64,000 nt of DNA, from the NCBI RefSeq assembly GCF_037975245.1, contig NC_092572.1:657501-721500 (forward strand). The letters are read 5' to 3'. Of this stretch, positions 1,116-60,283 are shown in pieces. Below the pieces are notes generated by a model. It was not told where the DNA came from and made no database searches. It saw nothing but the letters and a program-made list of their open reading frames with translations. Each line of letters begins with the position of its first letter. Positions within the stretch are counted from its first letter, which is position 1. The position numbers were made by a program, and so were the translations under genes. Source of the DNA: Apostichopus japonicus. Lineage: Eukaryota; Echinodermata; Holothuroidea; Aspidochirotida; Stichopodidae.

Positions 1116-2135
1116 GGGTTCTCTTCAAAGAGCTTTAACGTGGTTCTGTTGAGTGACAAACACTTCTGGCCCTATCTACGTTCCCTTATTACTTAAAAGG
1201 AGGTAATTTACTAGCGAAGACCAGGTTGACAATGTTATATATCGGTCAGCATGCACCCTCAAAACTCGGTTAAAGTATAACTAATACTTCGAGTGTCGAC
1301 TGTTGTGGGAAGAGGCGGCAAAATGTTATTATTATCATGGAGACTACACTCCAGAGGGACGCTGTCCGCTCTATTTCGATCGTCGACTGTCAGAAGGCTG
1401 CATAATGAATGTAAAATTTATCTTCCGAACTAATTAGTCATGTCTGTCTGACTCTGCTGCTTATCAATCGTTACTACCATTAGGGTAGTTGTTTGGAAGG
1501 TCGGAATTTCTAAACGTTGGAGAAAGATCAACCATGTAGGTCGAAGGTAAATGTATTTTAACCGATACGCGTCGGCGATAGTTCCCCGCCATCCGGAGCA
1601 TGGATGTCAAATCCGGGGTCAGAGCAGGGAGTTGTTATGGGAAAACTCCCTGGTCAGAGTCAATATATTTTATTCAGTACGCGGGAAATGTGGAAATCTC
1701 CCGCTCTACGTTCTAGGTGTGACATGCGTATTTGCATTCTACTGTAAAATGTATACTGCTGTTTACTCAGTGAAGTAAGCCGAATGTGCCGTCTACGTCG
1801 TTACATGTCGCAGGCCCAAAATTTCTTAGTAGCTGCATATATGAGTTGAGACCGTTAACTTACTTAGCCCGATCTGATATTACAAGATGACTTCTCCTGA
1901 CCTGGATACCGATGACGAGTAGGCCTCCATTATCTTTGGAAAATATTTTTCGTCAGGACTGTACCCTGAAAAGTCTACGATAAATCTAGAAAGATCGATA
2001 AGGGGAAGATCGAAGAGTTTTAGACTGACGGGAGATGCCGATCTAGTTTACGTCGGCCCACATGGCAACGAAGATTAAAGCTTACAAGAAGGGTTTGGCG
2101 GTAAGTGTATTATTTGTTTATTTGTATAAAACTTT
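1116..2135. other. No confident gene; short open stretch before LINE
   Basis: Around 1890-2080 one plus frame is open across phrases such as YFSSGLYPEKSTINLERS and ends in a TAA just before a GT donor-like site at 2101. An upstream ATG in the same frame meets a stop after 11 codons. This could be a decayed exon or the 5' part of a repeat. I recognise no family. Confidence 0.25.
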
Positions 2136-3802
2136 TTCTGAAGAGCAATGCAGGAGGTGATCTCTGTGAAGAGTCACTTGTAAAAGAGAGATGGCGTGTT
2201 TATACAGAGGACTTGTACAGAAGTGATCACAATATCACCACACAATTTACGGAAGGGATCTACGAAGAGGAAGCACCGATAATTGAGGAAGAAGTCAGAA
2301 AAGCTGTAAAGTCACTAGCGAATGGAAAGTCTCCAGGATCGGACGAATTACCCATTGAACTCTTTAAGGAAGTGGGTGAAGAGGGTGTAATAGTACTAAC
2401 TGTAATTTGTCAGCGAATCTGGTGCACTGGTGTTTGGCCAAAAAGATGGAAGGAATCCATATACATCCCGATTCCGAAGAAAGGTGACCCCCGAATTTGC
2501 TCAAACAACCGAACGATAGCACTGATCTCACATGCAAGTAAAGTCATGCTGAAGGTAATTCAACACAGACTAGAGGGATATATGGAACGCGAAATGTCAA
2601 TCGAACAAGCAGGCTTCCGGAAAGGCAGAGGCACTCGGGACCAAATTGCCAACCTTAGATGGATTTTGGAAAGGTCAAGAGAGTTCCAGCGTCCCGTTTA
2701 TATGTGTTTCATAGACTACAGTAAAGCTTTTGATTGTGTTGACCATCCAACACTGTGGACCATGTTGACGGAAATGGGAATTCCCAAGCACATAGTACAT
2801 GTGATTAAATCATTATATAATGAACAGGAAGCGAAAGTTCGAACCGAATATGGGGATACAGAAAATTTCAACATCGGCAAGGGAGTTCGACAGGGGTGTA
2901 TCCTTTCACCTTACCTTTTCAACCTTTATAGCGAGTACATAATGAGACAAGCCAATCTAGACAATGTAGAGCTAGGGGTGAAGATAGGTGGCAGAAGAGT
3001 CAACAACCTCAGATATGCTGATGACACCACACTGCTCGCAGAAAGCAAAGAAGACCTCCTTAATCTGATGGAACGTGTGCAGGCACATAGCACTCAGGCT
3101 GGGCTACACCTGAACCTAAAGAAGACCAAGGTTATGTGCACAGAGGAGCTGGACGAAATTATTTTGGGTGGAAACAAAGTTGAAATAGTACACGACTTTA
3201 ACTTTCTCGGTTCTAGAATTGATGACAATGGTACCTGTAAGGGGGAGATTTTGAGACGGTTAGCTCTTGGAAGAGCTGCTGTGACGGGGTTAAACAAGAT
3301 CTGGAGGGACAAAGCAATCTCATTATTAACGAAGAGTCAACTGATGAAAGTACTAGTTTTCCCAGTTGTGCTCTATGGGAGTGAATCATGGACAATAACA
3401 AAGGGAATGAGGGAAAGAATAGACAGTTTTGAATTATGGTGCTGGCGCAGGCTATTGAGAGTCCCTTGGACTGCACATAGAACAAACATCTCGATTGTGG
3501 AACAAATAAAACCCTCACTTCCACTGGAAGCACAGATCCTGAGGCAACAACTAAATTTTTTCGGTCATATCATGCGTGCTGACGACTCTCTGGAAAAATC
3601 ATTAATGGTGGGAATGGGTGATGGATCACGAAAGAGGGGCAGGCCACGTGCACGATGGATGGATGGTGTCAAGCAGGCGACTGGGTTGACTCTGGATAGA
3701 CTTCGAGGGGCAACCAGGAGCCGGCAGGATTGGAGGATTAAAGTCATGGTCATCACCAGGGGTCGAACACGACTCGACGGCACAAGGTGACAAGGTGATA
3801 AA
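2136..3802 (+). mobile_element. LINE, RTE/BovB-like reverse transcriptase, 5'-truncated
   Basis: Non-LTR retrotransposon coding region ending at the stop 3788-3790. About 550 residues are open. Reverse-transcriptase landmarks in order: NGKSPGSDELP, a palm block AGFRKGRGTRDQIANLRW, CFIDYSKAFDCVDH, GVRQGCILSPYLFNLY, the catalytic YADD in NNLRYADDTTLLAE, then the C-terminal SWT-FELWCWRRLLRVPWT and FFGHIMR-RGRPRARW blocks. These closely resemble the BovB group of the RTE clade. The apurinic endonuclease domain expected upstream is absent, so the copy is 5'-truncated and cannot move by itself. The first codon of the open frame is not a true start. The intact RT frame suggests a fairly recent insertion. 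The short 3' end with repeated AAGGTGA words is consistent with RTE. Confidence 0.9.
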
Positions 3803-6800: not shown

Positions 6801-8270
6801 CATTTCAGCAGGAGGCACATGTACACCTGATTTTGATGGAATCTGCAATGGAAGTTGTGTAACATGTTTTTTTTTCAAATACCTATCCTAGCTCATAGGC
6901 CTTACATGTTAATGGAATACATATGGACCACCTTATGCGTTCAGCTTATTAATGCTAGGCCTGGGTCGAAAATACTGTTCACAAGCAGCACAGTTATCAC
7001 TAAATCACTTTGTTTTTTGTCATCTAAAAGCAATATTTGTTTGCATGATTGTAACTGCAAAGTCATTCACCATATGCATATCAAGTTATCAACCGATGCT
7101 TAAAGTTTGCATCCCTTTGTTGGCCAGTGCAAGAGTATAAGGAGTATGTGTGGAGATTGTCCAGAGAATGAAAGATCTAGCTCATTCATTTGTTCTTAAA
7201 GTTATAATTTACTAAGCATATATTAAAGATGATCATGATGGTGGTACATTCAGTAGACTTAATGACTCGCAGTACTGTCGGGAATTTTCATGTACTGCAG
7301 CCATAAACACAAATTTCGCTAAGAACACATTTTGGTATTTTTTTTAGCTGCGTATAATTAAAGCAACAGGAAAACCTTTACATAGGACTTCATAATTATC
7401 TGATATGAATTTCAAAATGTAAAGAAAACTGAATTGTGATATGAAGCAAGAATGACACATGAACATAACAGAGTTCAGTAGTTGAATTGTTGTCATAAAG
7501 AAGTATCCGAGAAAATGTCCTAAGTACGTACATTCATATGCAGTTCATAACTAAAGTACCAACAGAGCCATAGCCTTTTGTCCAAAATTCATCCCCAATG
7601 AACCCATATGCTTATTTCAACATCTATTTAAGTAAATCTTGCTACTTGGTTAATAACCAAGAAGTCTTTCCTTCCATACTGTAACTCTACAGTGTGAATT
7701 TCTGTCATTAATATAAAAAATTCTGCAAATTCCCTTCAAAGATTAATTTGTAACATTTCTAAATGCTTACAATATATACATACCAAAGTATATATATAGG
7801 TTGTATCAAAGTATGCTTCCTACATCAGTTAGGTGTAACCCTGTCATCTCACTGACAGATTCCAAGGCAATTTTCTGACTAACTATCAATCACTCATCCA
7901 GGTACTTATACATCTGTTCCCCCCCCCCCCCACCCCACATTCAAAGGTGATGAAAATGGTTACCAGGCCTATGATAGTCCCTAGTGACAATTACCATCTA
8001 GATTGTCAGCTAGATCACTGCATGTGACTTGCATCTCACTTCAGAGATTTCCCATTGGACTTCCATATAACAGCTGGGTTTGACAAGTCAGTAAGTAATA
8101 GGTTTGGTAATGAAGAAAAAAATTGGTAACAGAGTCTTCCAGTGTGAGTTACAATAAAAAATAAAAAAAACAATTGAATGTTTAGCATTTTATAAAACTC
8201 AGATATAAATCACTTGAACATCAGTTCGTATGATTAGATTGTGTATGGTTCTGAATGCCATTTTACTTCT
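3803..8270. other. Intergenic, old repeats only
   Basis: No gene supported. 4785-4870 is a GC-rich repeat-like patch (GGGGGCTTTCGCCCCCAGG). 5285-5395 holds interleaved palindromes of the type CCGATACCGATAT and ATCGGCCGAT. 5941-5956 is a G run and 7920-7931 a C run. Open frames here are short and lack splice or family support. Confidence 0.5.
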
Positions 8271-22094: not shown

Positions 22095-22144
22095 CCTTCT
22101 TAACGTAATCCATGAGCATTGGTATAGAGTTATACTGCACTGTA
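22095..22144 (-). CDS. METTL27: METTL27-like exon 4, downstream part
   Basis: Reads QYNSIPMLMDYVKKG up to a GTAAGT donor. The upstream part of the same exon is at 37470-37517. The TA at 22143-22144 is the target-site duplication of element 1. Confidence 0.85.
22143..22144. repeat. TA target-site duplication, left
   Basis: Matches TA at 37470-37471. With one TA kept and the element removed, exon 4 totals 96 bp, the length that keeps phase with exon 5. Confidence 0.85.
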
Positions 22145-22175
22145 CACTGTAAAAACTAAAAGGGTTTATTTACCC
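22145..22175 (+). repeat. Element 1 left terminal inverted repeat
   Basis: CACTGTAAAAACTAAAAGGG, then TTTATTTACCC. The first 20 bases match the right end with three mismatches. Confidence 0.85.
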
Positions 22176-22240
22176 CAAAATAGGGTAAATGTAAATCCCG
22201 CATGTGGACACAAAGTATGGGTATTTATAACCACATTTAG

Positions 22241-22945
22241 ATGTGCATTTACCCTTTATTGTGTCGCTATGCAGGATTTACATTTACCCACTATTTGGTT
22301 TCTTTTACACAATTTAGGTGTGAATTTACCCATTATTGTGTTGCTATGCAGGATTTACATTTACCCACTATTTGGTTACTTTTACACAATTTATTTGTAA
22401 GTTTACCCTTTATTGTGTTGCTATGCAGGATTTACATTTACCCACTATTTGATTACTTTAACACAATTTAGGTGTGAATTTACCCATATTTGTGTTGCTA
22501 TGCAGGATTTACATTTACCCACTATTTGGTTACTTTAACACAATTTAGGTGTGAATTTACCCATATTTGTGTTGCTATGCAGGATTTACATTTACCCACT
22601 ATTTGGTTACTTTAACACAATTTAGGTGTCGATTTACCCATATTTGTGTTGCTATGCAGGATTTACATTTACCCACTATTTGGTTACTTTAACACAACTT
22701 AGGTGTGAATTTGCCCATATTTGTGTTGCTATGCAGGATTTACATTTACCCAATATTTGGTTACTTTGACACAATTTAGGTGTGAATTTACCCATATTTG
22801 TGTTGCTATGCAGGATTTACATTTACCCACTATTTGGTTACTTTAACACAACTTAGGTGTCAATTTACCATTATTTGAGTTGCTAAGCAAGACTCACATT
22901 TACCCACTATTTGGTTACTTTTAAACAATATAGGTGTAAATTTAT
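22241..22945. repeat. Element 1 subterminal 77-bp tandem array
   Basis: About nine units of 77 bp, each with GTTGCTATGCAGGATTTACA, TTTACCCACTATTTGGTTAC and AATTTACCCATATTTGT. The TTTACCC core also occurs in the terminal repeat, so these are plausible binding sites for an element-encoded protein, as TNPA binds subterminal motifs in En/Spm (inference). Confidence 0.9.
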
Positions 22946-23699
22946 GACTTAGTTGTGTTGATGTGTGGGATTATTCCATTAGATCTTTTGGTACTATTAT
23001 GCTTAAGATGTACAACTACCTCTTTGATGCTGCTGCACATAATTTACAATTATATTAAAGGTATTCTGTATTGGCCCAAAATTATAGCATGCTATAATCG
23101 CTAGATGTTTTCAAAGAATACTTTCCTGGAGGTCACTACCCTCCAATGGTTCACAGACATTCTACATTGAGCACACAAGATGACTGAATGTCTCAGTGAG
23201 AAAAATTTCCTCAAGAGTGGTAATAAAAACAGTTCAGAATTTTAAGCAAAGATGACCATATTTGGCCAACACAGCATACCTTCATTGGGCTACATAACAC
23301 AATGCAATTTAATTGTGCAGATTCTTGAATTAATATAATGGGTAAGAATGTTAAATTAGGAGAAAACTAGAAACTTCAAACATGAATACTACACTGCATA
23401 AACGTGATATGAATAATCAATGCAATAGCATGTTTATATCAATCTAGGAATATTCATGCATAATGTACAATATGGTGAAGCAACACTTAAAGTTGGTAAC
23501 ATATGTGTATACTAGTAAAACCTTGACTAAAAAATGTTACATTTACTAATGTATGATCACATTTTCTCAACAATTAGAAACTGCCACAACCCATTACTAG
23601 GCATGTCAGGTATTAAACCATGTAACAATTTTCATTTACATCGATGAATACATTTGTAAAATTAAGGTGTGCCAATCTTTTAACATTAACATAAATCTC

Positions 23700-25060
23700 T
23701 ATTGACCACAAATATTACTTTCAGGTTGTCTGTTATGATTATGCTGTATCACTGTCACCTTAAAAATCTGGTATCACTCAAAAAGTGCATTACTTTGGCA
23801 TAACATTGGTAAAAAAGACCATAACTCCCACTTTTATAAAATGGCTCAGCAAAAAATTGAGAAACTTGGAGAATATTGGGATAAACAATAATAACTTACT
23901 AATAAAAACAATTTGTATGTAAACAACTAACTTTGCAAATCAATGCAGGTACATCAACATGCTTTTGTTTATGATCAAACCCATCAGTTCTCACTGACCA
24001 TGAATGTTGCATCAACACAATAAAGGTTTACATGATAAGACCTGTATGTTACTAAGTTGTAAATTAATAACTCTAAAACATACCTTAACTCTAATGTATG
24101 ATTAATTATACAGTTCTTAGTGCTTTAACATTTCATGTTGATTTATCTTGAATACAACAGTACACTCAAAAAGTTGCATTAGAGTGGTGCATGTTTATGT
24201 GCACCACCCCCACCCCACCAACCAAATTTTGTTGTGACAGAACAAGCCACAATATATGGAACTTTCTTGTCACTGATCTAATTGTTCCAGCAATTGTCTC
24301 CATGATTTTATTTATATGTGCATCAAGCATTACAAAGATTATCGATAACAACTTCCTGGTCTTGGTATAAATTGACAAAAACAAAATCAAATCGAGCAAA
24401 GATACGGTGATGCTTAAGTTTAGGCCTATGATTGTGAATGATCACCATTAACCATCTGTGTTGAGTGTAACCGAGGCTAACTGAGGAAGACTAGCATACA
24501 ATTAGTCTACACTAAGCTTGCTTCAACTAGGCTGAACGTTAAACCTTAATCACTATACCCCTCTATGTTTATTTAGACCCCACAATTTATCACAAAATAT
24601 TACTGTACACAATTTGCTATTCTTAATGCTCATCAATCTTGGTTTGAATGTATAAAAAATTTACTGGCTTAGATAATTTGCTTAATATCAACTAATTGCT
24701 GTTTGGCCTTCTTATTACACCCAGTTCTAATTGTATTAACAGCTTATTATTGACTTTACTATATGACACCTTTTATAAAGTTGCATTAGTGTTCCAACTA
24801 AATTTTCGCCCCCAACTTTGCTCTTCGTCATAACAAGGCATGTCACAGCACTTCAAACTTGTAGTTGCCCCTGATCTCACTGTTTCACCAATATTGTAAT
24901 GTTTAGTATTATATATCATTTAAGTGTATTAAGAATTACCCAAATTATCATTTTACACATTATTTGTCTTGTAAAATTGTGCTAACAAACTAAATCCCTG
25001 AAAACAACACTATGCAAATCCAGCAAACAATCTGAAAAACATAACTAACAATAATTCTGG
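23700..25060. repeat. Degenerate ~600-bp repeats in element 1
   Basis: Three loosely similar units share CACTCAAAAAGTTGCATTAG-like words (about 23774, 24164 and 24773) followed by a TGATCT-rich block and TTAAGAATTACC-like endings. Non-coding. Confidence 0.4.
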
Positions 25061-25117
25061 GTCAACAAATAACAGAAAAACAATAGAACTTGAAGAAAAG
25101 TCACAAAATGAAATAAA

Positions 25118-25402
25118 TCATGCTTGAAGTTTTGCAATTAATGAAATGATCTTTTGAGGCAATTTCCCCTTGTCTTTGCATTGCAGCAGAACATTTTGCA
25201 GAAATGTCAGTGTTCCTTTTACTTTGCCGTTATACTGTATGTTGAAAACATAATATGTTGCCAGCAGGATTAGAACTGCCTCAGGGAAAGATGCTGCAGT
25301 ACTGCATTTTTCGTTTTCTGCAATGATTGTTATGTTTGATGGGTCCAGCGGATCCCCAGTGTATGTTATGACCGGTGTGCTGATTTCAACATCCGAGCTA
25401 AC
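25118..25402 (-). CDS. SAMD3-like exon 9 (terminal)
   Basis: Phase-0 start at VSSDVEIST, a hydrophobic helix AVLILLATYYVFNI and an end at LIAKLQA. The same exon type, also phase 0, is at 51486-51815 in element 3. Confidence 0.9.
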   Translation of the reverse strand, partial: VSSDVEISTPVITYTGDPLDPSNITIIAENEKCSTAASFPEAVLILLATYYVFNIQYNGKVKGTLTFLQNVLLQCKDKGKLPQKIISLIAKLQA

Positions 25403-28400
25403 CTATCAAACAATGAAATAAATAGGATGATTAATTCCTGATAACACATTTTCAAAGGTAATCCAGCTTCTTCAGAATCACATACACTAAACTTGCATTT
25501 GATAATATTACTTGGGAGCTGATTTGAATAAGCATCATTTCTAGCTATAAATGAATATTGCGAATGTTTCTATAACTCAGGGTATATATAAACCAGAATG
25601 TCAAATAACTTAGTGATTCCTTGCCATTATGAAGCAACATTAGATGGCATATTTTCCAACTTCCACCGTGCTGACCTGATATCACCAGAAGTGCCATTGG
25701 CCTTAGAGTATCGAATCATAGGTGCCTATATAAGAAGATTGAATTTGAAACCAACTATCATTTCTTCAGCGATCAACTTTATTAAGACTTGGCTCTAATT
25801 GAAGACAAGTGAACTGTGACCTCCATACAAAACATTCGGGATTTGCTACTTACCAAATGCTACCTAAATTCAATTCATGATATGTGGTGGTAATTAAAGG
25901 GTTCACGTTTTCATGTTTGTTGATCTCAAATGACCTCTGACCACAATCAAAAACAGGAAGAACCACCTACTCACCAAGGGTTACCTTGTGTTATCTTTTA
26001 ATTCAAAGAAAAAATAGGGATCATCTGCTCACCAGGGCTATCTACATATTACTCTTGAAGTGCAAACCATCTTTCACTTCTTGAGGTATAGTGTTTACAA
26101 ACCGAGGCCTCACACACACCCCGATCAGCATTGCATAGATTTCTTTGGCCTTAGAAGGGTTATCGACATATTACTCTTTACATCTTTTGCAAGTTTACAA
26201 ATAATACACCAACTAATGAAAGGGTTATTAAAATGGGAAGCTTACATCATCATCACTGTTTATAAACAGAAAGTTGCGATCTTCTTTCAGGAAGCCAGGT
26301 AGTATCCAGAGAGCTGCAGTCCATGTAGCATCTGTAGCAGAAATAAACACTGAAGTTATTGTCTTCATTCAGTGTAAATGAATGTAAAATGTAACACAAC
26401 AGTAAAAAATTTCATGCTGATTTCCTGAAAATAACATAATGATTTAGTAAGTTGATGTAGTGTATCAATGCAGTTTTATCTCTGCACTCTTAAAAATAAC
26501 TACATTGAAGTGTTCCTTAATTAATGTTTTATTGCAGGATTCAGTAAACCATCTAATTCATCCAATGACGACACTGTTGCTACTTTGCCTCATATGGTCA
26601 CAACTTGTCTCCTTGCTCAGATTATCCTGTATATATGAAACAGGATTGGCCACATTTTTCTTCATTATCTTGAAAGACCTTGGATTTTTTTTTAAGTTTT
26701 CAAACATCTGCCATCAGTTTAACTAATTTATATTTTAAGAAGCTGACAAAATGCTTGTCTCAACTGAAACTGTTAAGACATATCTCCTAGTCTACATAAT
26801 AGTAAACTTTTTTATTATTTTTGGTAATTAACTCAGCACTTTGAGATGTTAACTTACCCCTTTTGTCTTTTTCTGTCAATTGCTGAATAAAGTTGTTGTA
26901 TTCAACAAGGAATCGAAGAGTGCCCTTTGAGTGATTTGTGTTGTAGGTGATGATCTTTGCTGCAATGTCATCAAGATTTTTGTAGAACATCTCCGACACT
27001 GCATCCCAACTGATGATGGCTGAAAAATCTTCTATGATCTATGAATTAAGGTAATAAAAAGGATGATAATGACATTGTATTAATAAATAACTTTCAAACA
27101 GGAACTTTCAGCCAAGTATTCGTGTTAGATCATTAAGTCAGTAAAAGAATCTTGTTTTGGCAGTTATTCATGATTTTCTTCAGTCAAACCTCTATTTTAG
27201 TAGAAATTCTAAACATTCAAATACTCTTACATATCATCCATGGTATTTAGATTCACCTACTTTTTTGAAAATCCCTGTCAAAGCTAACAATGTGTTTCTT
27301 CCATGGTAAATAAAACAGCTATGATAAGCTCACTTGGCAGGTTAATTTGTGGCAAAATGCACTCATGACCCTTTTCCTTGAACTTTGTCTACCTCAAATG
27401 ATTCTTGAACTAAAAAAGGTAGGAATCATCTACTAACCAAATGCAATCAACATTCTAAGGGATTTTTAAGAAGCCAGTAACTGACAATTTTAACACTTAT
27501 TGCACTGTGTTTCATGAATATCAGCTATGATTCAAGGAAGCTTCCCTTCCTGAGAAATCCTGAGAGCAAGCTATGCAGCATGAACACAAGTTCATTCACC
27601 CTTACATACACAAGCCTTAACATTGGCTTATGATTTCGTCAAACCAACAATTTCCAGTGTAGAACATTATAATCATAAGTCTTAATAATTAGGAATCATA
27701 TGTTTGAAATTACCTGTTCTGCACAAAATAGAGTAGGAAATTTGCCTCTGATTTCTGCTATTGGTGGTTTCTCCTCAAGTACAAGTCTCCTTCTCTCTCC
27801 AAATGTCAGTGCCATTAATGACTTAATTTTGTTCTTGTCTTGTTTTTTCTTTGTTGATTCCTTTTGTAGTTCCTTAATGTGCAGTTTGATAGTCTCCTCT
27901 GTTTCACCCTCAGGTAGAGTCCAATCAGCTCCGTCTTTTCGTTCTCCCTCGTCAGTTGTTGCATGTGTAGATGTCTTCCTCTTCTTCACAACTACATCCC
28001 TCGTCATGTGTCTCCTCTCATTTCTGAACTTATCTTTGAGTGCATTTTTCAATGCATCCTACAAAACCAAGATGCAAAAATGAATGGAAGCTGCAGTATG
28101 ATGAGATTATCTGATATCAATGTTACATATTCTGTTAAAATACCTTTCTTCAGTCTGGACTTGTAATTTAAAGAGCTATGAAATTGTGATGAACACTTGA
28201 ACACAAAGTATATTGTAATTTTGTTACAAGGTCTTAAAAACAGCTGAACAATTCAAATTAAACTTCAACACTATTGTTAGGTATAAAACTCGGCAACCTC
28301 ACAATGTAATTTATGCACATGTTTCATCATGTCACCTCACCCATTTTAAAGAGTAGACACCTTGATCTTACAAGCATGCACATCTGGACATTCATGTCAG

Positions 28401-31400
28401 ATGCATGCACAATGTGTACTGGTTCATGCATCTTCTCAGGTAGGCCAGTAAATTATATGAATATGTATGTATACATATATGTCACAGGAGGGGGCTAATG
28501 TGCAAACATCTGCATGTATACAAGACCCCAGACTACAATATCCCCCCCTCCCCTACCCACCCTGTGCTGCAGCAGTTCAACCCTTGCATCCACCCAGTTA
28601 AGTTCCCTCAAACTGAAAAGTACTTTTACAAACCAACAGCAAAATTAATCTATAGTGGATGTAAGATTTTGCCCTTGAAATGGCAGGAGAAACAATCTAG
28701 TTTTGAATGCCCCATCATTTGATGTCTTTATTAAAAAGATCCAGCTGTACATAGTTCTTCACTAGCACCAGCTACTGGATATAAAAATGGCTTTTGACAA
28801 TTAAGCAAATACAGTGAAAATAGTCTCCTGTCTACCTGAAAAGCACCAATTTGACTGATACCATTAGTAGTGGTAGTTTTGTACCAAGTAGTCGAAATTA
28901 CACAATCTAGTCAGGTGCTTTTTATATGTACATATACGCCCACCTTCTAGATAATAAATGAAGAGCTTAATCATATACTTACATAAGGCTCACAGAATGG
29001 TAATTTGATTGCCAAGTTTGGAAAGGACTTTATGACTGCTTTAGCTGCTGTATTGTATTGATCTGTAGTAGGATACCTACAAAAAAGAATATCACTTTAT
29101 AGTTGATTCACATACAGGGTTAGTGCCAGCTGTAAAATTTAGGAGGGGGGGGGGGCAATTACCCACTTAACCAACTCTTTTGGGGGGGATTTAGTATATT
29201 GGGGGAGCCTTTTTAAAATGTGGAGTGAAAGGAAAAGATGGTACTGTCTGGGGCTCCAAAAGCTCCAGTTTTTAACCTTCATATCAGCAGGACAGGGCTT
29301 GGTTGGGTGAGACTCATACAGGCCCAATGATCTCCCATAATAGAAATTTCTTATGTTACGGGATACTGCGGACCATCTCTATAGTGGTCTCTTGTATCAT
29401 TCTTGAAGATATATTGTCTAAATTGTTTTGTTTTTACTATGTAAAACTTAATTCCTTGTTTTAGTCTGATGTTGATCTGGGATTGAAATAAACCTTACAC
29501 ACACAAACACCAAAAATTACATTTTTAAAATAATATCAACAACTTATTTTGCAACTTAATAATAACAGTGAAAAGTTCACCCATTTACCCACTAACCATC
29601 AAGTCCTGCTTGTACTAAGTACCTTACCTAGCACCCCCATTCCCCCCAGACAGGCTGAGTCAGCTAAAAGGCTATGATTTTATATTTGAGGTCGCTGTCT
29701 GAGCTTGTTTGTTTTGGTAATGTGGATATCCCCATCTGAAGTTAAAATATCAACAGAACTTTAACAAAGTTGTAACCACATCATTCCAAGGTTCCACAAT
29801 ATTAAAATCTGTAGGTTATTGACACATGACGTCTTTATATGCAAAAAATCAAATGCGAAAATACAGGCTTCCAAAGGTGTTATTGTTCCAGGTTAAATAA
29901 CACCACAATTTCAAAGATGGCATACTTACACATTGACATATTTCAAAGCTAGTAATTCTGAGATGTTGAAAAGTCAAGATTCCAAAGACTTGTGCATTAT
30001 GCATGCGTATGACATTTGAAGGCAAAAATTTACACTGGTTTAGCATTAGTGATTGAAAAGACAAAATATTAATATTCAAATAGGGAAAGGTACTTACACA
30101 GTAAACAAACACATTTTGTCAAATGTAGCTTGGATTACAGCAGATTTAATTCTGTTGCTGACAGGTCCCCCTTTTAATAGTTCTACCAAGATGTCTCTCC
30201 TAACATCATCTTGATGCAGCTCAAACTTGTTTGGCCATGGCAAGAACTTTTCTTCTTCATGAAAACTATCAAGCATGCAAAAAGGGTAAACAAAACTTTA
30301 TTAGCAAAATGTATAGAATTAGCACTTTCAATAAAGTGACCCTAAACAAATTTTACATGAACAATACAGATTATACTTTGACACAGGTTGAACAGCTTGA
30401 TTTTCACTACTTCAGCTGTAAGTTGTTGAACATGCATGTCAGTACTTAGCAAAATGTGACTTCATATTAAATGGCCTCTTCAAATAAGGGGCTTTGTACT
30501 GAACTTCTTTAGGGAATGTGTGGGACTTACTGTTAACCAACCAAGTTCCACCAACCCCCCACCCCCCATACCCTAATATATTGTAGTGATAGCTTAAAGA
30601 GAAAATGCAGTCACCCTGATTTGAATTAGTATACTGTAGTATAATATTTCTATTATGGCTCTTCCTACTCATGTGACAATGTTTTTGTTACTGAATTGTT
30701 GAATTCATGCACCATAACTCTTAGATTTGTCTTTTATATGCAATATTTATGTTCTAAAATGCCATAAAATATAATTGTAAGGTCAGCACCAGAAATTTGC
30801 AAGGTTTAGCTGATATTGCAAATTAGTTTGGGGCAACTGCTTATTCCCTTAAATAAGCTCTTTTTTGCTTCTGTCAAGGTAGGATAATAATTCAAACATG
30901 AAATGTTACATGTCTTACCTGTCTGAAACATCACTGGTACAAGGTACATCTCTTTCATTTCCAGCCAATATAATGGTGTCATCTGAACTTGAAGAGCTTG
31001 TAAATGAACTGGCACTGAGGCATGCAACTGACAAAGGAAAGGAGTGTCCAAAATATGTATTATAAATTATTTTTCTAATTTGCAAAACCCCAGGATGTAA
31101 AGATTAAATATGTGTTGCTCATAAGTACAAGAAACAAAATAACTGGATTTGCATTGCAAGTTGCTACTTACTATTAAATCTTCAACTGCTAACCAATTTG
31201 ATATTGATTAGCACTTTCATTAGACAGTAATGCTTTTTGATTGATATTGCAAACTGTAAACTGTTACAATGAAAATTTGAAGTAGTATTCAACTTTGGCA
31301 TACCAATTTGTCCCTTGCAGAATACCTTCAGACTGTGATAATTTCTTATCTTAAAGCTTCCCTGAAATTTCAAATATGAATACTATAGTGACTTCCTCCT

Positions 31401-34400
31401 GTCAAATATCCCAAAACTTTCCACTACTGTAGGGGGAAAGCCATGAGGAGAGGTTATGACAATGTACATACATTCATACAAGAATGTTTTATGTGCATAT
31501 ATTATCCTTGGAACTACCCAAGTACCAATAAGTTCCAAATGGGGTTCACACATCATATTATGCCAATAAGGCTCCTTCATGAAATGGTAATAAACATGCT
31601 GCTGATAGGCAAATTTTTCTGGACAACAATCTTTTTGCAATCGTGTACAAGAAGCATTTATACTTACCTTCATCTCTTTCACCAATCACATTCAGTTTAA
31701 CTGCTTTATCTTCCATCTGCTCTTCTTCTATATCACCGTCAATGTCCACCCAGTCGTCAAAGTCTTTATCAAAGACCTGAAGCCGAAATTTCTTTATCCC
31801 AAATTGAGATTTGATTTCTGGTTCTACATCACTTGCACTACATAAGAAAACCCTTTTTCTGGATCCATAAGTTACATGGTACCGTTTAAGTGCTTCACTG
31901 AAGACACAAATATATAGAAACTAAAAAGTTGTTTCTTCTAACCTTTGAAGTTCAAAGTAACAACGATAAGGAATGAGATGCTCTATTTTAAGTATTAATG
32001 TTTCTCTAAACAAAGTACTTAAGTGTTACCATTCTCTGATTTTGATTTGTGTAAATTGATAAGGGTAAATGACAAGCAAAATCTTCATAAGCAAATATGA
32101 CCCATTTTTGTTGAAAACACAATACATAGCTATGGAAATGTTGACTGTAACCAATAGTGCGCAAAACCATCAAAACAAGATACACTTTACCACCTTTGAT
32201 AAAGATTGCATCTATTTTGCCAAATTCATGCAACCTATTTTCTCTTGCCTCTAGAACCATGCAACAACCTTTTGCATACAATGAACTGTGTAATTCAACA
32301 AAAGCTAATGTATGCACTTCTTCAATGCTTGGAAATTGACTTTTCAAAGCTCTCTGAATCCCATCACAAAACTAATGTAATTTTTGAATGTCCCCTCCTG
32401 AGTTGGATGTCATTTTGTCATCCCAAAAATTCTGACCAGCTCCATAATAGCACATAAGTAATTGATGACGCCTTGCCAATGTCTTACACAAATTCCGCCT
32501 GTTTTTCTGCCTATTGGCAATTTCTTTGAAATATGCATGTTTAGCTTCAAACCTCATTGTCCAGCAGTGAACAAGAGGTCCATATTTCAATATTGAACGA
32601 GGGTAATGCAATAAGTAATGACTTTTGGGTTTAATTCTATCTTCAGGAAAGAGCTCTTTCAGAGCAACCAGAAATCCATGCACCAAATATTCCAAGTATG
32701 CAACCATTTCACATGGTATAGAGGGAGCAAATGTAATTTCACAAATATCCATAAGTGACAAAAATAGTTCCCAGTATTCATTTCCCTCTGGAATTGAGCT
32801 TCCTATGATTAAAGGCAATAATCTCATCAGGCACCATGTTTGAGATGCTGTTTGTTTGATTTTGAAACTTCCCAGGTTAGCAGTGGTATTGCAAGTTGGT
32901 TTGCTTTTCTGATCACTTTTTCCAAAGGGAAAAAGTTTCAAAGCACTGTTAAAAGATTCCAAAGTGAAAAAGCCATCCTGAATAAATGTTGTCACAACCT
33001 TCGTCATTAATTCTGGAACAAGTCCTTCGAGCAAATCATGAGCTGGATCAGGTGGTAGACAACTGATTACATCAAAGTATTGCAAATCTGACAAAACAGA
33101 TTTAGAAGCTACTCCATAAACATGCCTAAGACCTTGATTTTCCATAACTAACTGCACCTGATGTTTGTGACCAACACTTGTTCTTTCGATTAAACTGGAT
33201 GAATCAAAATGATCTTGAATGTCATTACTACTTGCCATGCAAAATCTACATATTCTACCAGCATGAAAATGTTGCTGAAAGCCTCCTAACTGATGTGCTG
33301 CCAAGTTATCCATGGAAACCAAACTAATGCAACCCTTGAATGTAAACTCCTCCTGGTTTAAAGTTGTTATTGTCACCCCCTTACTTTCTAAGACTTTAAC
33401 ATCCTCAAGAAGCGGTTTGAGCACTTTCCCAAAGCCATACTGTTTTATTAATCTTGTACAGCAGAGGCAAACAAGCTGAATTGATGACAATTTTGACCGA
33501 AACTTTGGGGATAAATTTCCAAGAACAAAATAAAATGCAGCAACTTTGTAGCTGTTAGCTTTATTTCTAAGTGGGTTCACCACACCAAAATCATCATAAT
33601 AAAAATGAACTTGGAGTGCATGTGGCTCCAAAGAGAATAGGGGATGATTTTGAAATGCTTCACCATCACAGTAATCCTCATATCGCTTGTCCCCACGTCT
33701 AGAACGGGACTTCAGAACTTCTGCTAAAATATCATCATGACTTAAAAGACTTTTTAGAGTATCAAGCAATGGTACATAAATGAATGTATCATCTTTCCCA
33801 CAGGTGGAACCTAGCACATGTTCAACTGGCTCAACTAAACCAAAATGCTCCTTATAAAAAGCTGTCTGTTTATAGTCTGAGGCCAACTTTTCAAAGATGT
33901 TATTTTTCTTTTCAAACTTTTCATCGATAAAGTTAAAGATATCAGGATTTTTAGCCACTGTGAAACCAGAAGCTGAAAGTTTTTCTTTGATCTCTGTGCT
34001 ATCATCCCTTGAACTGTTATAGATGAGTTCAGATAGCTCTAATATTATGCTATTTGTAACAGTAAGTGGTAGTTTATGCTTCTCTTTCATGCCTAAGATG
34101 AAAAGAGCAAAGTCTCTTTCCGTGGATCTTTCACCGATTTCTCTGATGTGTGATCCATCACCCAGAGCAGCAGCATCGATAGCACTTATTCCAGTTGATT
34201 CTGCAAGACTATTTTTATGCGAATTATGAGTCACATCATCAACTTCTAAACCAATGTTTTCCGTCACTAGACTTGTGCCTACTTCAGTATCCTCATGCCC
34301 ACCAGAGTTACTGTCATGCCTTATGTTAACATCGAACACTCTTTTATGAAATTTCCGCAGATGGGAATAAAACGTGCTGAACACCCGATATTTTCTTTCA

Positions 34401-34896
34401 CAACCATCTATTCCACATCTTATGGAGAAGTTGGGTTCAATACTATGTGAGAATCTTATGTGATGTAACAACTTTTTGAAAGTAATGGTCCTGAAAGTGT
34501 TACATATTGAACAACTTTGCATCTGCAAGGATGCCATAAGGCCTAATCTAACAAAACCTTGGCTAGGCTTTATTAGGATGGCTTGGCATAAGTACTGGAC
34601 AAACCTCACAGCATTAATGCACACTCAGTTTTAATAGTTCAGTCTTGGCCTGCGCTAGCTAGGCTTATAAACTTTGATACAATGGTAGGCCACAGTGTAG
34701 GCCCTGCATTGTACTAGTGGCTGTTACTTGTAAGACATAGCCTAGGCTTAGTTATAAAGTCTTCTAATCTTATATAGGCGAATAAGTAGCAGAACAGTTA
34801 GGCTAGTAAAGCCTAGGCATAACAGTTATTTAATCTGTACTTTTATAAACCAAACAACTCTTTCAAGGGCTTAACGTCAACTTACACTTGTGACAT
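25118..34896 (-). CDS. SAMD3-like accessory protein of element 1, nine exons
   Basis: Exons right to left: 34896-34886, 31897-31668, 31027-30919, 30265-30098, 29076-28983, 28058-27714, 27038-26858, 26331-26246, 25402-25118. All have GT-AG edges, every phase agrees, and the total of 1509 nt gives 502 residues and a TGA. Start: MSQ in exon 1, just before GTAAGT. Residues 4-80 form a beta-grasp/PB1-like N-terminus (YHVTYGSRKRVFL, DFDDWVDIDGDIEEE). 81-117 is Ser-rich. 118-319 resembles the middle of SAMD3-like proteins (LPWPNKFEL, YPTTDQYNTAAKAVIKSFPN, a basic patch, then a helical KELQKESTKKKQDK). 409-502 is the tail typical of that family (AVLILLATYYVFNIQYNGKV). The SAM domain itself is not present. 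Role inferred: DNA-binding or regulatory partner of the transposase, equivalent to TNPA. Exon 1 lies upstream of the transposase ORF, so one promoter could serve both. Confidence 0.88.
27714..28058 (-). CDS. SAMD3-like exon 6
   Basis: 345 bp, phase 0 at both ends. DALKNALKDKFRNERRHM, a nuclear-localisation-like VVKKRKT, then ETIKLHIKELQKES and FGERRRLVLEEKPPIAEI, the most recognisable block of the SAMD3-like family. The plus-strand open frame over it is antisense. Confidence 0.9.
29110..29345. other. G-rich patch in SAMD3-like intron 4
   Basis: Begins CAGGGTTAGTGCCAGC and contains runs of G, as at hAT MITE ends, but no matching right end is visible. Possibly a truncated repeat. Confidence 0.3.
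31668..31897 (-). CDS. SAMD3-like exon 2
   Basis: Acceptor TGTCTTCAG, donor GTAAGT. Reads EALKRYHVTYGSRKRVFLCS to VIGERDE. Its phase fits only an upstream exon ending in two bases, which exon 1 (ending GT) supplies to give a valine. Confidence 0.85.
32006..34537 (-). CDS. C2H2 zinc-finger transposase-like protein of element 1, one in-frame stop
   Basis: Intronless frame of 843 codons from MASLQMQSC (an ATG preferred over the upstream GTG) to LKYFV and a TAG, with one internal TAG at codon 722 (32372-32374). Residues about 8-65 hold two C2H2 fingers (CSIC-x-HHIRFSH and CGIDGC-x-HLRKFH). The core contains SMDNLAAHQLGGF followed by CRFC, then PDPAHDLLEGLVPEL, HYLLHYPRSILKYGPLVH and MRFEAKHAYFKEIANR. 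Their order and spacing resemble TNP2/TNPD transposases of CACTA elements, with DN, HDLLEG and FEAKH as candidate acidic catalytic sites (inference). The C-terminal module ends in RMVTLKYFV, as in related zinc-finger proteins of fish and invertebrates. The ORF lies wholly in intron 1 of the SAMD3-like gene. The internal stop removes only the C-terminal module. It could be decay, an assembly error or readthrough. Confidence 0.85.
34886..34896 (-). CDS. SAMD3-like exon 1 (11 bp coding)
   Basis: ATGTCACAAGT followed by the strong donor GTAAGT. Spliced to exon 2 it gives MSQVEALKRYHV. The transposase ATG is 349 bp further along the same strand, so splicing or retaining intron 1 would choose between the two proteins. 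Confidence 0.75.
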
Positions 34897-35110
34897 GTTG
34901 CTTTAGATTCATATAAAAATACAAGCGGCCGTTGAAGGTGAAGTCCAGTCGTGTCAAGTCTCGTCAAATGTGACGGCGAAGCGCTTCTGCGGGAACAAAC
35001 TAAGAAATACTAGGACTGGTCGCCAAGCAGTGCAGTGATGACAGTATACTGTATACTGTACTGTACGTACGTAGGTCTAAGGCATTGTGTTAGCGCCAAG
35101 CGCCAAGCGC
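34897..35110 (-). promoter_or_regulatory. Probable promoter region of element 1 genes
   Basis: Upstream of exon 1 on the minus strand is a locally GC-richer stretch with several CpGs (GGCCGCTTG, CGCTTCGCCGTC) inside AT-rich DNA, and TATTTTTATA about 25 bases before the ATG. Position and composition suggest a promoter shared by both genes. The transcription start is not determinable here. Confidence 0.4.
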
Positions 35111-35699
35111 GAACGAACCACCCTTTGTGAAAGAAAACTTGTCATTGGCTTAAAGTTTGAATCTTTCATTTGATATTATGTGGGGTTCTTTCTAATTTTT
35201 CAGATATGCACCCATTTTCTGGAATACCAACTTTGAATCTTTTACATTTTTACCAATATTTATTACCACATCCACATTCTTGAAAGGCTGTATTCAGAGA
35301 ATTAATGTAAAGTAGTGTTTTAGGAAATTTGTTTTTAACCAATGAGAAGTAAGAACACTTCTGAGACGTATAGTCTGCCATTATTCTCTCGGCGCGGCCT
35401 GGCTGCAAACGTAACTTTTATTTCTAGTACGAATGAGTACATCATTGTAGAAAATTCTATAGAAGTCACAATGAAAAAAATGTTTCAGCTATGGTCGACG
35501 TTTAAGGGCCAGGCATTGTTATCATCCGTTGTGGGGATAAATGTATGCTGGCCGTGCGAAAAAGCACAAAACACTTAAACGTACACAATCATGACAAAAA
35601 TATTGTTCCAGCTAGCTCAAGCTGTACTTCTAAGAATATTTTGTAAACAAGTGTCTCGAGAAATACTCACGTTTAGGCTCTATCAGTTTGAATTGTGAG

Positions 35700-36072
35700 C
35701 AAGGGCGTAGGAACCGGGGGGCTGGGGGGGGGGGGGGGGCGCCAGCCCCCCAGTGAAAAATGTGGAGGGGCGGAAGTATCATTCCGCCCCCCCGGTTCGC
35801 AGGTCAGAAAACCCCTTTTTCATTTCCAAATGAGAAAAAAATCTCATTTGGAGCACCAAATTGCATCTAGGGCCAGTTGAAAATACAAAATTAAGTTTAC
35901 AAAATGGAGTGGGTGTTGAAGTGTGCTATATTGCACCAAATTGCATCTGAGGCCACCTGGAAATGCAAAAAATTCCAAAGGGGAGGGGGACACCCCCTCC
36001 CCTTAAACCCCTCCCCCAGGCCGGCCATCAGTCTTCAGCCCCCCCACTCAAAAGTACCTTCCTACGCCACTG
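35700..36072. mobile_element. hAT-type MITE nested in element 1
   Basis: Ends CAAGGGCGTAGGAACCGG and, inverted, CAGTGGCGTAGGAAGGTA. Exact 8-bp duplications ATTGTGAG lie at 35692-35699 and 36073-36080, the hAT size. The interior is G/C-run rich with two copies of GCACCAAATTGCATCT. Non-coding. It must have landed after element 1 was assembled. Confidence 0.9.
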
Positions 36073-36779
36073 ATTGTGAGTCAAACCGTCTTCATGGGCC
36101 AATCCAGAAGGGGAGGGATTCAGTGTTTCGAGAAAATGATCGCAGTAGCTTATATACTTTCCGTTGTTTTGTTATGTACATAACGTACGGGACTACCTTC
36201 GTTGAGGGGGGGGGGGTTGGTCTGACGCAACACAAGCTAGCATGCTCGAAAAAGAGCGGCTGGTCTGAAGAAAAGGGTACCTTCTGATCGATGGGTTGCA
36301 AACCTTCACCCCGTCTCATACGCGCCCATGGTTAGACCTATGTAGATCTTATAGATAATTGTCTGCACCCCTTAATCAGGTGTTGGTATTTATAGGTTGG
36401 GCGCCGCTCCTTATCTGTTCATTACCTCAGGATCATTTGCTATTTTGACTGTATTAGTTAGTCTTGCCTTATTAAACTTTCACGAAACTTCATATAGGCC
36501 TATCCTACGACTCCATTCATATCCTCTCACCCCCACATAAGAAACAGTTATTATTTTACTAATAACCATGCAGACATTTCCACGGGGAAATTCGGGGATA
36601 CTCCATATATCTGTGCAGTTTGCCGTATATTTATAACACGATATAGGCTATTAATAAATAAATGTCAAGCTAAACAGCTGGCCTATTGTCGCCCCAATTC
36701 CTTTTGACAGTAATTTGCATTGGTTGTTGGGACTTTAGAAATTGGGCCTATAGTCGCCGGGGCAGCTCTGTGTTCCAAA

Positions 36780-37439
36780 ATGTACATGTAGGGTACTATA
36801 GGGTGCATACAAATAATGACGGGCTAAGACCCGAAAATACTGGTAGTGATATATATTAACCCATGAACGAGTAAATTTATACTTCAGTACATAAATACTG
36901 GGTGATAATTCCCCCAGGGTGGCATTTTAAACTAATCACAAGTGTATAGAACAAATACAACCACATGAAGTGTATAAATAGCTCTTATCTTGTGTGATTC
37001 TACCCTCTTACGATACTTCAAAATAAGTGTTGTTGGTGTTATACCCTTTTTGATTTAAAACAACATACTAAGAAGGGTTATTTTACACCTTGTTACTAAG
37101 GTATACATTATTCGTGCAAAGTACATGTTATGTGGGTAAAATTACCCTATTGGTTAAAAAGGGTACTTTTTTGAAAAGTGAGTGTAAAATAAGCACTGTA
37201 AATGTGTAAATGTACATAAATCATTGTGTCTTATTACACGCACAGTATGTAAATTTACCCACAAAGATCAGAAATACACAAACCGGCTTTACCTCGGGGT
37301 ATATGTACACGTTAATCGGGTAATGGCCAAGGCAATGGTTATGTTTACACTTTGTGATGGTATAACTACATTGTGGATGTTTATTATACACTTTTCCAGT
37401 GTTTAATAACAATCCATGTGTTAAAATACCTGACAACAG
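36780..37439. repeat. Element 1 right subterminal region
   Basis: Contains repeated motifs of the GGGTAAAATTACCC, GGGTTATTTTACACC and AAATTTACCC type, mirroring the TTTACCC motifs at the left end, but no regular tandem array. Confidence 0.65.
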
Positions 37440-37469
37440 TGTAGAACTACCCGTTTATTTTTTAGAGTG
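37440..37469 (-). repeat. Element 1 right terminal inverted repeat
   Basis: Read inward: CACTCTAAAAAATAAACGGG, then TAGTTCTAC. It is followed outside by TA at 37470-37471 and then methyltransferase exon sequence. Confidence 0.85.
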
Positions 37470-37517
37470 TACCGACAGAAAAAAAAACGCCGCCAGCTAC
37501 TACAGCGTCATAGGAAT
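37470..37517 (-). CDS. METTL27: METTL27-like exon 4, upstream part
   Basis: Acceptor CAG, then SYDAVVAGGVFFSVG up to the TA duplication. With element 1 removed it reads on without a break into TVQYNSIPML at 22142. Confidence 0.85.
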
Positions 37518-38104
37518 CTGAAAAATGAAGAAATTATCACCTGAAATGACATCCAGTTATTGTTTTCTGTACAGTGCAAACCACATAACCTTCATCTTTG
37601 TCCATGCAATGGATATAGGTATCTCCCGTTTATTTCATCAATCCAACGTTGCTTTGAAATATAACATTGATTATTAGTTTCACACAGAACACATTGATAA
37701 ACATCAGCACATTGGGAGCCATGTTTGTGATTTTTTTCCATTGAAAGATATGTTCTGTGCTGTGCCTGAAATTAATTCTTTGTCCCTTCACTGTTTCTAT
37801 CCTACCTCTCCTCTACCCCTATTGGTTTCTTTCTTTCTACTCTCCATCCCTTGTCTACTCATCCCCTTACATCTATCGTTTTGTGTTCACAATGCTCATT
37901 AACCTGTCTGAATTCTGTGAGTGTTTTTGTTCCTTCTGTTACTGTTAATTGCCATTTAGTCTTAAGTTGTTAACAATTTCCTGCAGTTTTAGGTCAAGAA
38001 ACCAATTCCACATAGCATTTATGAGGCGCCGATGTTTTGTTTTTCATTTTTTATGATATTTAATGATATGTCATTCATTTGCTACTAAGTAAAAAAAAAA
38101 CAAT

Positions 38105-58275: not shown

Positions 58276-59400
58276 TGTTCAGATATGACGAAGACTTCAG
58301 CTCTCATAGCTAATTGTACACGGTCATGATACGGCTAACTGAAGGTGACATAAATAGCCAAAGTGGCAACGCTCTTGTGAAGGGAAGGGCTTAATTAGTG
58401 AGAACTACAGAGATTTAGAGACACATTACTTTAATCGTAACGTGTGTAAGTCAAATGAACCGGAAAATTATAAGGAGTATGCAACCATTGTAAGCTATAG
58501 TTAGAAATAGTTAGCAACCATTGTAAGCTATCAAAATGCTAGTGTTCTCCTTTACAGCTTTCGAAACTGCAGACAGCAGCGCAAAGTACTTTACTGAATC
58601 AACCCCCTCTATTATGTTTGAGGATTCTTTAACATTGAATTTACTAAGTCACTATGTGTATCATACACGCGAGGTAATCAATGATATTAGACGGGTTCTT
58701 TTTAATTAGGGTACAGTCGGGAATAATCGGTCAGCCATAATATTCGACTGTTGCATTTCTTTCCTTTTTCCTGAGATATATTACAGGAAAATTCTGCCTC
58801 AGTGTTTACATTTATCAAAAGAATCCCTCTTGACTTAATATTTCACCAATTATTTTACCGTTGGTGAAAATGTGCAAATTTGATGTTTCCTATGGCTCTA
58901 ACATTGTGATTCGTAGTTTCAATGCAATGCTCTTACTACGGTCTGTAAGAATCCATTGATGGAAGTTAAGTAATAGATCATAGATAAAGATGTTTTCAAG
59001 CTAATAATAAAATAACTTATGTATTTATGTATTTATTATAATGTAAGTGATTCACATCTTCAATTATTAATTCGTAATATTTCACTTGTTTATTTTATTA
59101 GGCCTACAGATCGTTTTGTGTGTAACTAACTAAGTTTATCATGCTAATTGGGGATTGCAACATACTCTGTACAGTGCCTATGTAAATGATTCACTAAAAT
59201 ATAGCATAATGCTTTTTATTAGCTAGTCGATGGAATGTAAATATTACACTCAACATTTACAGTGCTATAGAAGCATGTAATATATACAAATCGCACAATT
59301 TTCGATTCCCTAATGGATTTATTTCCACAGATACGATTGCCGGTAGAGGAATCCCGCTACAAGTAAACGAGATATATAGATGCAACACTTAGTGTATTCA
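58276..59400. other. No supported gene
   Basis: AT-rich. Open frames are short and lack family or splice support. No gene A extracellular exon was recognised here. Confidence 0.45.
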
Positions 59401-59403
59401 ATG

Positions 59404-60150
59404 TATGGACTTGGATCGGTTGGTAGCAGGTGTAATCCGTGGGGGACTTGGATCGTTTGGTAGCAGGTGTAATCCGTGGTGGACTTGGATCGTTTGGTAG
59501 CAGGTGTAATCCGTGGTGGACTTGGATCGTTTGGTAGCAGGTGTAATCCGTGGTGGACTTGGATCGTTTGGTAGCAGGTGTAATCCGTGGTGGACTTTGA
59601 TCGTTTGGTAGCAGGTGTAATCCGTGGTGGACTTTGATCGTTTGGTAGCAGGTGTAATCCGTGGTGGACTTGGATCGTTTGGTAGCAGGTGTAATCCGTG
59701 GTGGACTTGGATCGTTTGGTAGCAGGTGTAATCCGTGGTGGACTTTGATCGTTTGGTAGCAGGTGTAATCCGTGGTGGACTTGGATCGTTTGGTAGCAGG
59801 TGTAATCCGTGGTGGACTTGGATCGTTTGGTAGCAGGTGTAATCCGTGGTGGACTTTGATCGTTTGGTAGCAGGTGTAATCCGTGGTGGACTTGGATCGT
59901 TTGGTAGCAGGTGTAATCCGTGGTGGACTTTGATCGTTTGGTAGCAGGTGTAATCCGTGGTGGACTTGGATCGGTTGGTAGCAGGTGTAATCCGTGGTGG
60001 ACTTGGATCGTTTGGTAGTAGGTGTAATCCGTGGTGGACTTGGATCGGTTGGTAGCAGGTGTAATCCGTGGTGGACTTGGATCGGTTGGTAGCAGGTGTA
60101 ATCCGTGGTGGACTTGGATCGGTTGGTAGCAGGTGTAATCCTTGGTACAT
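59404..60150. repeat. 37-bp minisatellite, 20 units, open in three frames
   Basis: Unit: GGACTTGGATCGTTTGGTAG then CAGGTGTAATCCGTGGT, 37 bp, near-identical copies. Three variants differ at GGATCGTTT, TGATCGTTT and GGATCGGTT, arranged mostly in blocks with the GGATCGGTT form at both edges. The reverse complement contains no stop in any frame and 37 is not a multiple of 3, so all three minus frames stay open and each cycles through one 37-residue repeat (PPRITPATKRSKS, DYTCYQTIQVHHGLHLLPND). The low variation suggests recent homogenisation. Translation is unlikely. Confidence 0.95.
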
Positions 60151-60283
60151 CTGATCCTTTCTTCCAATGAGTGAAGACAGCCACTCTATCGCCTTTACTT
60201 CTATGGAGATGTACGTAGCCAGCTTACACCATCTAACATCAACATTCTACATTGTCCTTTGGTGCAACAAATAGAGTATGCCG

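Follow-up and report, generated by a model that had tools for sequence, protein, structure and literature searches.

The question raised by this locus is whether an animal transposon can carry its transposase inside the first intron of a second gene of its own, as the maize element En/Spm does. The DNA analysed, hereafter the window, is a stretch of 64,000 nt from the sea cucumber Apostichopus japonicus (assembly GCF_037975245.1, contig NC_092572.1, positions 657,501 to 721,500 of the forward strand). A sequence-only reading had described an En/Spm-like unit at positions 25118-34896. The analysis found that, as far as DNA sequence can tell, a tnp2-type transposase open reading frame (ORF) does lie wholly within intron 1 of a second gene of the same transposon and on the same strand. 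The exon anatomy of the proposed unit stood but the transposon itself proved larger (22145-37469). Overall, the locus was read, with a probability of about 0.6, as a two-gene transposon with the transposase ORF in intron 1 of an accessory gene and with a shared transcription start.

Exon structure of the second gene and the nested transposase

The exons of the second gene, the nested reading frame and the downstream signal were as follows.

34886..34896, minus strand: coding exon 1 (ATGTCACAAGT), 11 bp, with a GTAAGT donor
31898..34885, minus strand: intron 1, GT-AG, containing the transposase ORF; both ends intact in 19 of 19 aligned rows
32006..34537, minus strand: transposase reading frame, tnp2 type, broken in the window copy by a TAG at 32374-32372
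31668..31897, minus strand: exon 2, PB1-like domain by predicted fold
30919..31027, minus strand: exon 3
30098..30265, minus strand: exon 4
28983..29076, minus strand: exon 5
27714..28058, minus strand: exon 6
26858..27038, minus strand: exon 7
26246..26331, minus strand: exon 8
25118..25402, minus strand: exon 9 with the stop codon; its protein relatives adjoin other transposases
24568..24573, minus strand: AATAAA, about 545 bp past the stop codon of the second gene

The nine exons joined in one frame of 1509 nt which encodes 502 amino acids (aa), and all eight introns were GT-AG. The splice sites of exons 1 to 5 were intact in 19 of 19 rows, as was the donor of exon 6, while its acceptor was intact in 18. 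The product of exon 2 took a PB1 (ubiquitin-like) fold in structure prediction and the second protein is predicted to begin with a PB1-like domain. The 502-aa protein had no Pfam family at an expected value (E) ≤1 and no PDB chain at E ≤5, and the earlier name of SAMD3-like found no backing in these searches, SAMD3 itself having been outside the comparison.

The 11-bp coding exon at 34896 that had been proposed was borne out by sequence signals. Its junction with exon 2 (34886 to 31897) keeps the frame and is GT-AG. In exon 2, no ATG in frame precedes 31716, and a protein that includes the whole exon-2 domain must therefore begin in a coding exon further upstream. Between the 5' end of the element and exon 2 (5.6 kb), three places were found where an ATG opens a frame of the correct phase that reaches a GT[AG]AG donor in 300 nt or less; among these, 34896 gave the longest exon (11 nt) and a strong donor (AGT/GTAAGT, the slash marking the cut). 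The 33-bp stretch spanning exon 1 and its donor occurred at 25 places, 23 exact and two with one mismatch. One exact place was in the C8 copy, which is about 91% identical elsewhere and shows clearly greater divergence above the conserved block. A fragment on C1 (L063) had no exon 1. Judged by these signals and their retention, the 11-bp exon 1 is more strongly backed than its length implies.

No AATAAA or ATTAAA was present from the transposase stop to 30302 and an AATAAA was found at 24573, past the second gene; this layout suggests, without demonstrating, a shared 3' end of both genes. If exon 1 were spliced to the AG that precedes 34547, the transposase would be read in frame from MSQVLGLMASL, but an open in-frame join of some kind with exon 1 is available at three of the 32 listed AGs. 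The nesting very probably represents real splicing anatomy in the family of the window.

The transposase ORF had been described as complete and of zinc-finger type. Its nesting on the same strand was confirmed, but in the window copy it is incomplete owing to the TAG at 32374-32372. None of the 18 further copies read has this TAG, and 15 of them retained the ATG and 843 open codons; copies c4 and c9 were frame-broken and c16 was open with its ATG lost. The zinc-finger label was not confirmed; its basis is two C2H2-like patterns picked by eye, and Pfam gave only a zf-C2H2_aberr match under the cut-off (E 0.083). A PDB sequence search with the transposase gave a single weak row (E 0.59) and the AlphaFold model, with a predicted local distance difference test (pLDDT) score of 34, was too poor to use. 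The motifs YYDDF, SMDN, CRFC, HYLLH and MRFEAKH were chosen by eye in the translation; they may be parts of a DDE signature and of the C(2)C and H(3-4)H pairs expected between its second D and E in the clade discussed below.

Boundaries, target duplication and copies of the transposon

The transposon and its parts were placed as follows.

22145..37469, minus strand: whole DNA transposon, 15,325 bp, with its genes on the minus strand
37449..37469, minus strand: 5' terminal inverted repeat CACTCTAAAAAATAAACGGGT, 18 of 21 positions identical to the opposite end
22145..22165, plus strand: 3' terminal inverted repeat CACTGTAAAAACTAAAAGGGT, 18 of 21 against the opposite end
22143..22144: TA target duplication, left
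37470..37471: TA target duplication, right
22235..22944: 3' subterminal array, 9.2 copies of a 77-bp unit, TTTACCC-rich
35702..36073: inserted repeat in the 5' region of the transposon, lacking in five of 18 other copies

The termini of the transposon were CACT...GTG. At the right end, 17 of the 18 copies fetched stopped matching the window at 37469-37473, with different flanks beyond, while the stretch fetched for the remaining copy, c15, did not reach this end. At the left end, a coordinate search showed that 12 of the 21 other near-identical copies started their match at 22131-22145; the remaining nine started at 22235, 22312 or 22466, some with additional rearranged pieces. The partner of the right end was found at 22145 and the left end was placed there. 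A left end at 24163 was rejected, as 16 of 17 copies read at that position continued with identical letters to the left.

Three empty paralogous sites were found on the same chromosome near C12:3550051, 3560895 and 3775037, where the element is absent and a left flank match of 81-93% continues into a right flank match of 88-95%. These sites were established by coordinates and not by letters. The overlap of left and right matches was 17-18 bp. At each site, two estimates placed the TA 2 bp apart, and we attribute the difference to a gap within this A-rich overlap. The window is flanked by GTA on the left and TAC on the right. In copies c10 (right flank CA) and c12 (right flank TT) the left match starts one and two bases past the commonest start, respectively, as a 2-bp target duplication predicts. 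A 3-bp target duplication was tested and rejected, because the window flanks and the empty-site coordinates gave 2 bp (TA). At the 3' end, the heptamer TTTACCC occurred 18 times in 1055 bp, where 0.56 would be expected; the 500 bp at the 5' end contained two (expectation 0.21).

Near-identical copies sharing the 3' part of the transposon numbered 22, with that of the window counted. A 501-bp probe, whose counts are lower bounds, gave at least 28 matches: 19 full-length at about 100% (window included), three at 95%, three at 91-92% and three scraps. The mean pairwise difference over 28100-35689 was 0.27% for 16 of the 19 rows, with c4, c15 and c16 omitted as parts of them were misaligned, and 0.65% for all 19. 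Copies c17 and c18 on contig C7 share one flank, a duplicated segment, and were therefore counted as one insertion. Judged by these low differences, the transposon is young and recently mobile.

An older rearranged copy was observed at G000:C6:10863091-10876683, with pieces of both ends, exon 9 with one TAG and exon 1 with one mismatch. It had no transposase or exon 2 match among the matches listed and is likely a non-autonomous derivative. The repeat at 35702-36073 has a 91% relative in L010 at 7552-7897 and ends in a short inverted repeat around GGGCGTAGGAA. A repeat of about 210 bp lies within the 3' region of the transposon (23055-23264) with relatives of 83-86% on several contigs, and one of about 187 bp (37777-37963) adjoins the transposon, with copies of about 90% on many contigs.

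Gene order in diverged families of the same genome

The transposase search scored the best 62 of 454 candidates and listed 76 matches. A total of 37 transposase loci of other families (30-44% identity) were kept and 39 rows were dropped, comprising 28 copies or fragments of the family of the window and 11 N-terminal pieces of kept loci. For exon 9, the best 150 of 267 candidates were scored, 27 rows of the window's family were dropped and 123 were kept. Among the matches listed, an exon-9 match lay downstream on the same strand within 25 kb at 22 of the 37 diverged transposase loci. The transposase/exon-9 pairs numbered 23, all with exon 9 downstream and 22 on the same strand. Against the 22 observed, 2000 rotations with random strands gave a mean of 0.13 and a maximum of 3, the contig spans being taken from listed coordinates and not from true lengths. 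The 22 partnered loci made up about nine further families, grouped by eye on spacing and identity. About nine diverged families share this gene order, which is thus no accident of the window copy, and by this comparison of sequences the order transposase then second gene is old.

The exon-2 search gave 38 rows, 11 of them outside the family of the window. Five of the 11 were near a kept transposase, all five downstream on the same strand, and they represented two families with two weak matches (E 0.15 and 0.25).

The sequence-only reading had suggested looking for the same exon order in other copies and species. The gene order was recovered as above but nesting was read in letters in the window's family and, in other families, suggestively in one only. 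In family 2 (copy at C18:5574300, 515 bases read), an acceptor-like TTTCTTTTTCATTTCAG is followed by a short ATG-free stretch ending in CAAA/GTAAGC, and the transposase ATG comes 6 bases past this donor-like cut. Such a layout would be expected if the first exon were noncoding and the transposase lay in the intron after it, which would be a cleaner form of the same switch. It is also compatible with two separate promoters, and the donor-like site could be due to chance.

Exon-9-like matches were also observed away from transposases: 100 of the 123 outside the window's family had no kept transposase within 25 kb, among them groups of similar copies spread over many chromosomes. Other elements may also carry the second gene; alternatively, the transposases beside these matches may be among the candidates that were not scored.

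Classification and comparison with known systems

The CACTA/EnSpm-Mirage-Chapaev-Transib (CMCT) clade, which holds EnSpm, Mirage, Chapaev, Transib and relatives, has target duplications of 2-5 bp and, mostly, 5'-CA..TG-3' termini (PMC12730594). The element has CA..TG termini and a target duplication within 2-5 bp, and it probably belongs to this clade. It is not a strict CACTA element because its target duplication is 2 bp and the strict CACTA/EnSpm criterion is 3 bp (PMC12730594, PMC4007536). Of two further marks of strict CACTA/EnSpm, the Transposase_21 domain is matched under the Pfam cut-off, and subterminal repeats, expected at both ends, are strong at the 3' end alone. The fungal EnSpm/ESTA lineages, also of the CMCT clade, have CA..TG ends, and ESTA has TA duplications as the sea cucumber element does; they differ in being fungal families that carry TET/JBP, and the likeness is one of description, transposases aside (PMC12730594).

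In En/Spm, the tnpD ORF is derived from intron 1 of the 11-exon tnpA, tnpA mRNA is 100 times more abundant and TNPA recognises the subterminal repeats (PMC2613891). Judged by sequence and splice signals, the sea cucumber element shares with it a transposase, probably of tnp2 type, within intron 1 of a multi-exon second gene. Unlike En/Spm, the sea cucumber element has a 2-bp TA duplication, a single transposase ORF, strong repeats at one end only and a second protein that starts PB1-like with no Pfam match; it is also known from sequence alone.

The earlier description of the locus as an animal parallel of En/Spm holds for the anatomy, but it is not the first such case. For SmTRC1 of Schistosoma mansoni, compared with Spm by its authors in 2006, the majority of expressed sequence tags (ESTs) are spliced past the transposase ORF and a single clone carries ORFs in tandem (PMC1636069). 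SmTRC1 is likewise an animal element; it has Transposase_21, to which the sea cucumber frame has a match under the cut-off, and is an earlier case of splicing around a transposase ORF. It differs in its size of 4.5 kb, in its 54-bp terminal inverted repeats starting with CCC and in other proteins that are not detectably conserved (PMC1636069), whereas the nine-exon second gene of the sea cucumber element has relatives in about nine further families. A literature search, mostly by title and with Repbase outside its scope, found no animal element with a second gene of PB1 or SAMD3-like type, and the available text of PMC4158355 and PMC4007536 does not describe a nested second gene in animals. 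Three features were not found described: a second gene of nine exons whose product begins PB1-like, the presence of relatives of this gene in about nine further families, and its coding start upstream of the transposase.

Proposed mechanism and alternative explanations

We infer the following arrangement. Transcription most likely starts upstream of 34896. Removal of intron 1 through the exon 1 donor would give the accessory mRNA for the 502-aa protein. If intron 1 is kept, or a nearer 3' splice site is used, the mRNA would carry the transposase first, then the accessory exons, and would finish at the poly(A) end common to both genes. A TNPA-like role is probable for the accessory protein, which would bind the subterminal repeats or assemble on the transposase through its PB1 domain. 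That splicing controls the ratio of the two proteins is about an even chance.

Several observations count against this two-gene reading with a shared start. A genome search for the spliced exon 1-2 junction with up to three mismatches found none. The Pfam Transposase_21 match to residues 297-436 (E 5.2e-4) speaks for a tnp2-type transposase, but its score of 19.7 bits is under the cut-off of 28.6. Among the matches listed, 15 of the 37 diverged transposase loci had no exon-9 partner, and six of the 11 exon-2-like matches outside the window's family were near no listed transposase. No constraint was seen among the copies, with a ratio of nonsynonymous to synonymous polymorphism (pN/pS) of 1.13 for the transposase and 0.77 for exons 1-6 (misaligned columns included), which is a weak test of constraint because the copies are too young. 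In a leader that retains intron 1, six ATGs precede the transposase ATG, that of exon 1 included, and plain intron retention would therefore be hindered. Finally, exon 2 of the second gene in family 2 bears its own ATG, which means that not every family has a coding exon ahead of its transposase.

The last two observations also favour tandem, separately transcribed genes, with a transposase promoter in or just above 34885-34538, a second-gene promoter in or after the transposase ORF, and an exon at 34896 that is unused or minor; the ATG in exon 2 of family 2 fits a separate promoter. This arrangement is unlikely, though it deserves serious weight. Without an in-frame ATG in exon 2 before 31716, the PB1-like part would be lost unless there were another first exon, and neither the transposase ORF nor the 108-bp gap holds a phase-correct ATG with a GT[AG]AG donor. 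Diverged copies, moreover, retain the donor stretch of exon 1. It is improbable that the promoter is shared but the first coding exon is a different one (36538, 34614 or several upstream), in which case the nesting would hold and the exact exon 1 would not. Two further phase-correct candidates and an acceptor-like CCCGCAG near 34987, in the conserved block above exon 1, speak for it; the candidates at 36538 and 34614 are, however, only 8 and 5 nt long with weaker donors. Least probable of all is that the second gene is an unrelated neighbour or a captured host gene whose nesting is accidental in the window's family. The exon-9-like matches near no listed transposase (100 of 123) are in keeping with such a gene, but its place downstream on the same strand at 22 of 37 diverged loci, and inside the ends of the transposon, argues against it.

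Other features of the window

A tandem array at 59319-60184 (minus strand) gives three overlapping repetitive ORFs of 250-282 aa. A 561-aa ORF lies at 2105-3790 (plus strand), which we take by eye to be non-LTR (long terminal repeat) reverse transcriptase-like from a YADD motif. No Rfam match at the gathering score was found within the window.

Biological significance

Beyond the two-gene reading itself, a further possibility, less likely than not, is that the element belongs to an old animal two-gene lineage with about ten families in one genome, of En/Spm design, in which a PB1 accessory protein would take the place of TNPA and the transposase-bearing intron would set the protein ratio, possibly from one shared start codon. 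In our judgement, how En/Spm got its transposase into the intron of its regulator is an open question. Convergence would point to a general way of keeping transposase scarce, and common ancestry would place the origin of the two-gene design before plants and animals split. A recently mobile animal element of this anatomy would provide a system for testing splicing control of the transposition rate and the role of the accessory protein.

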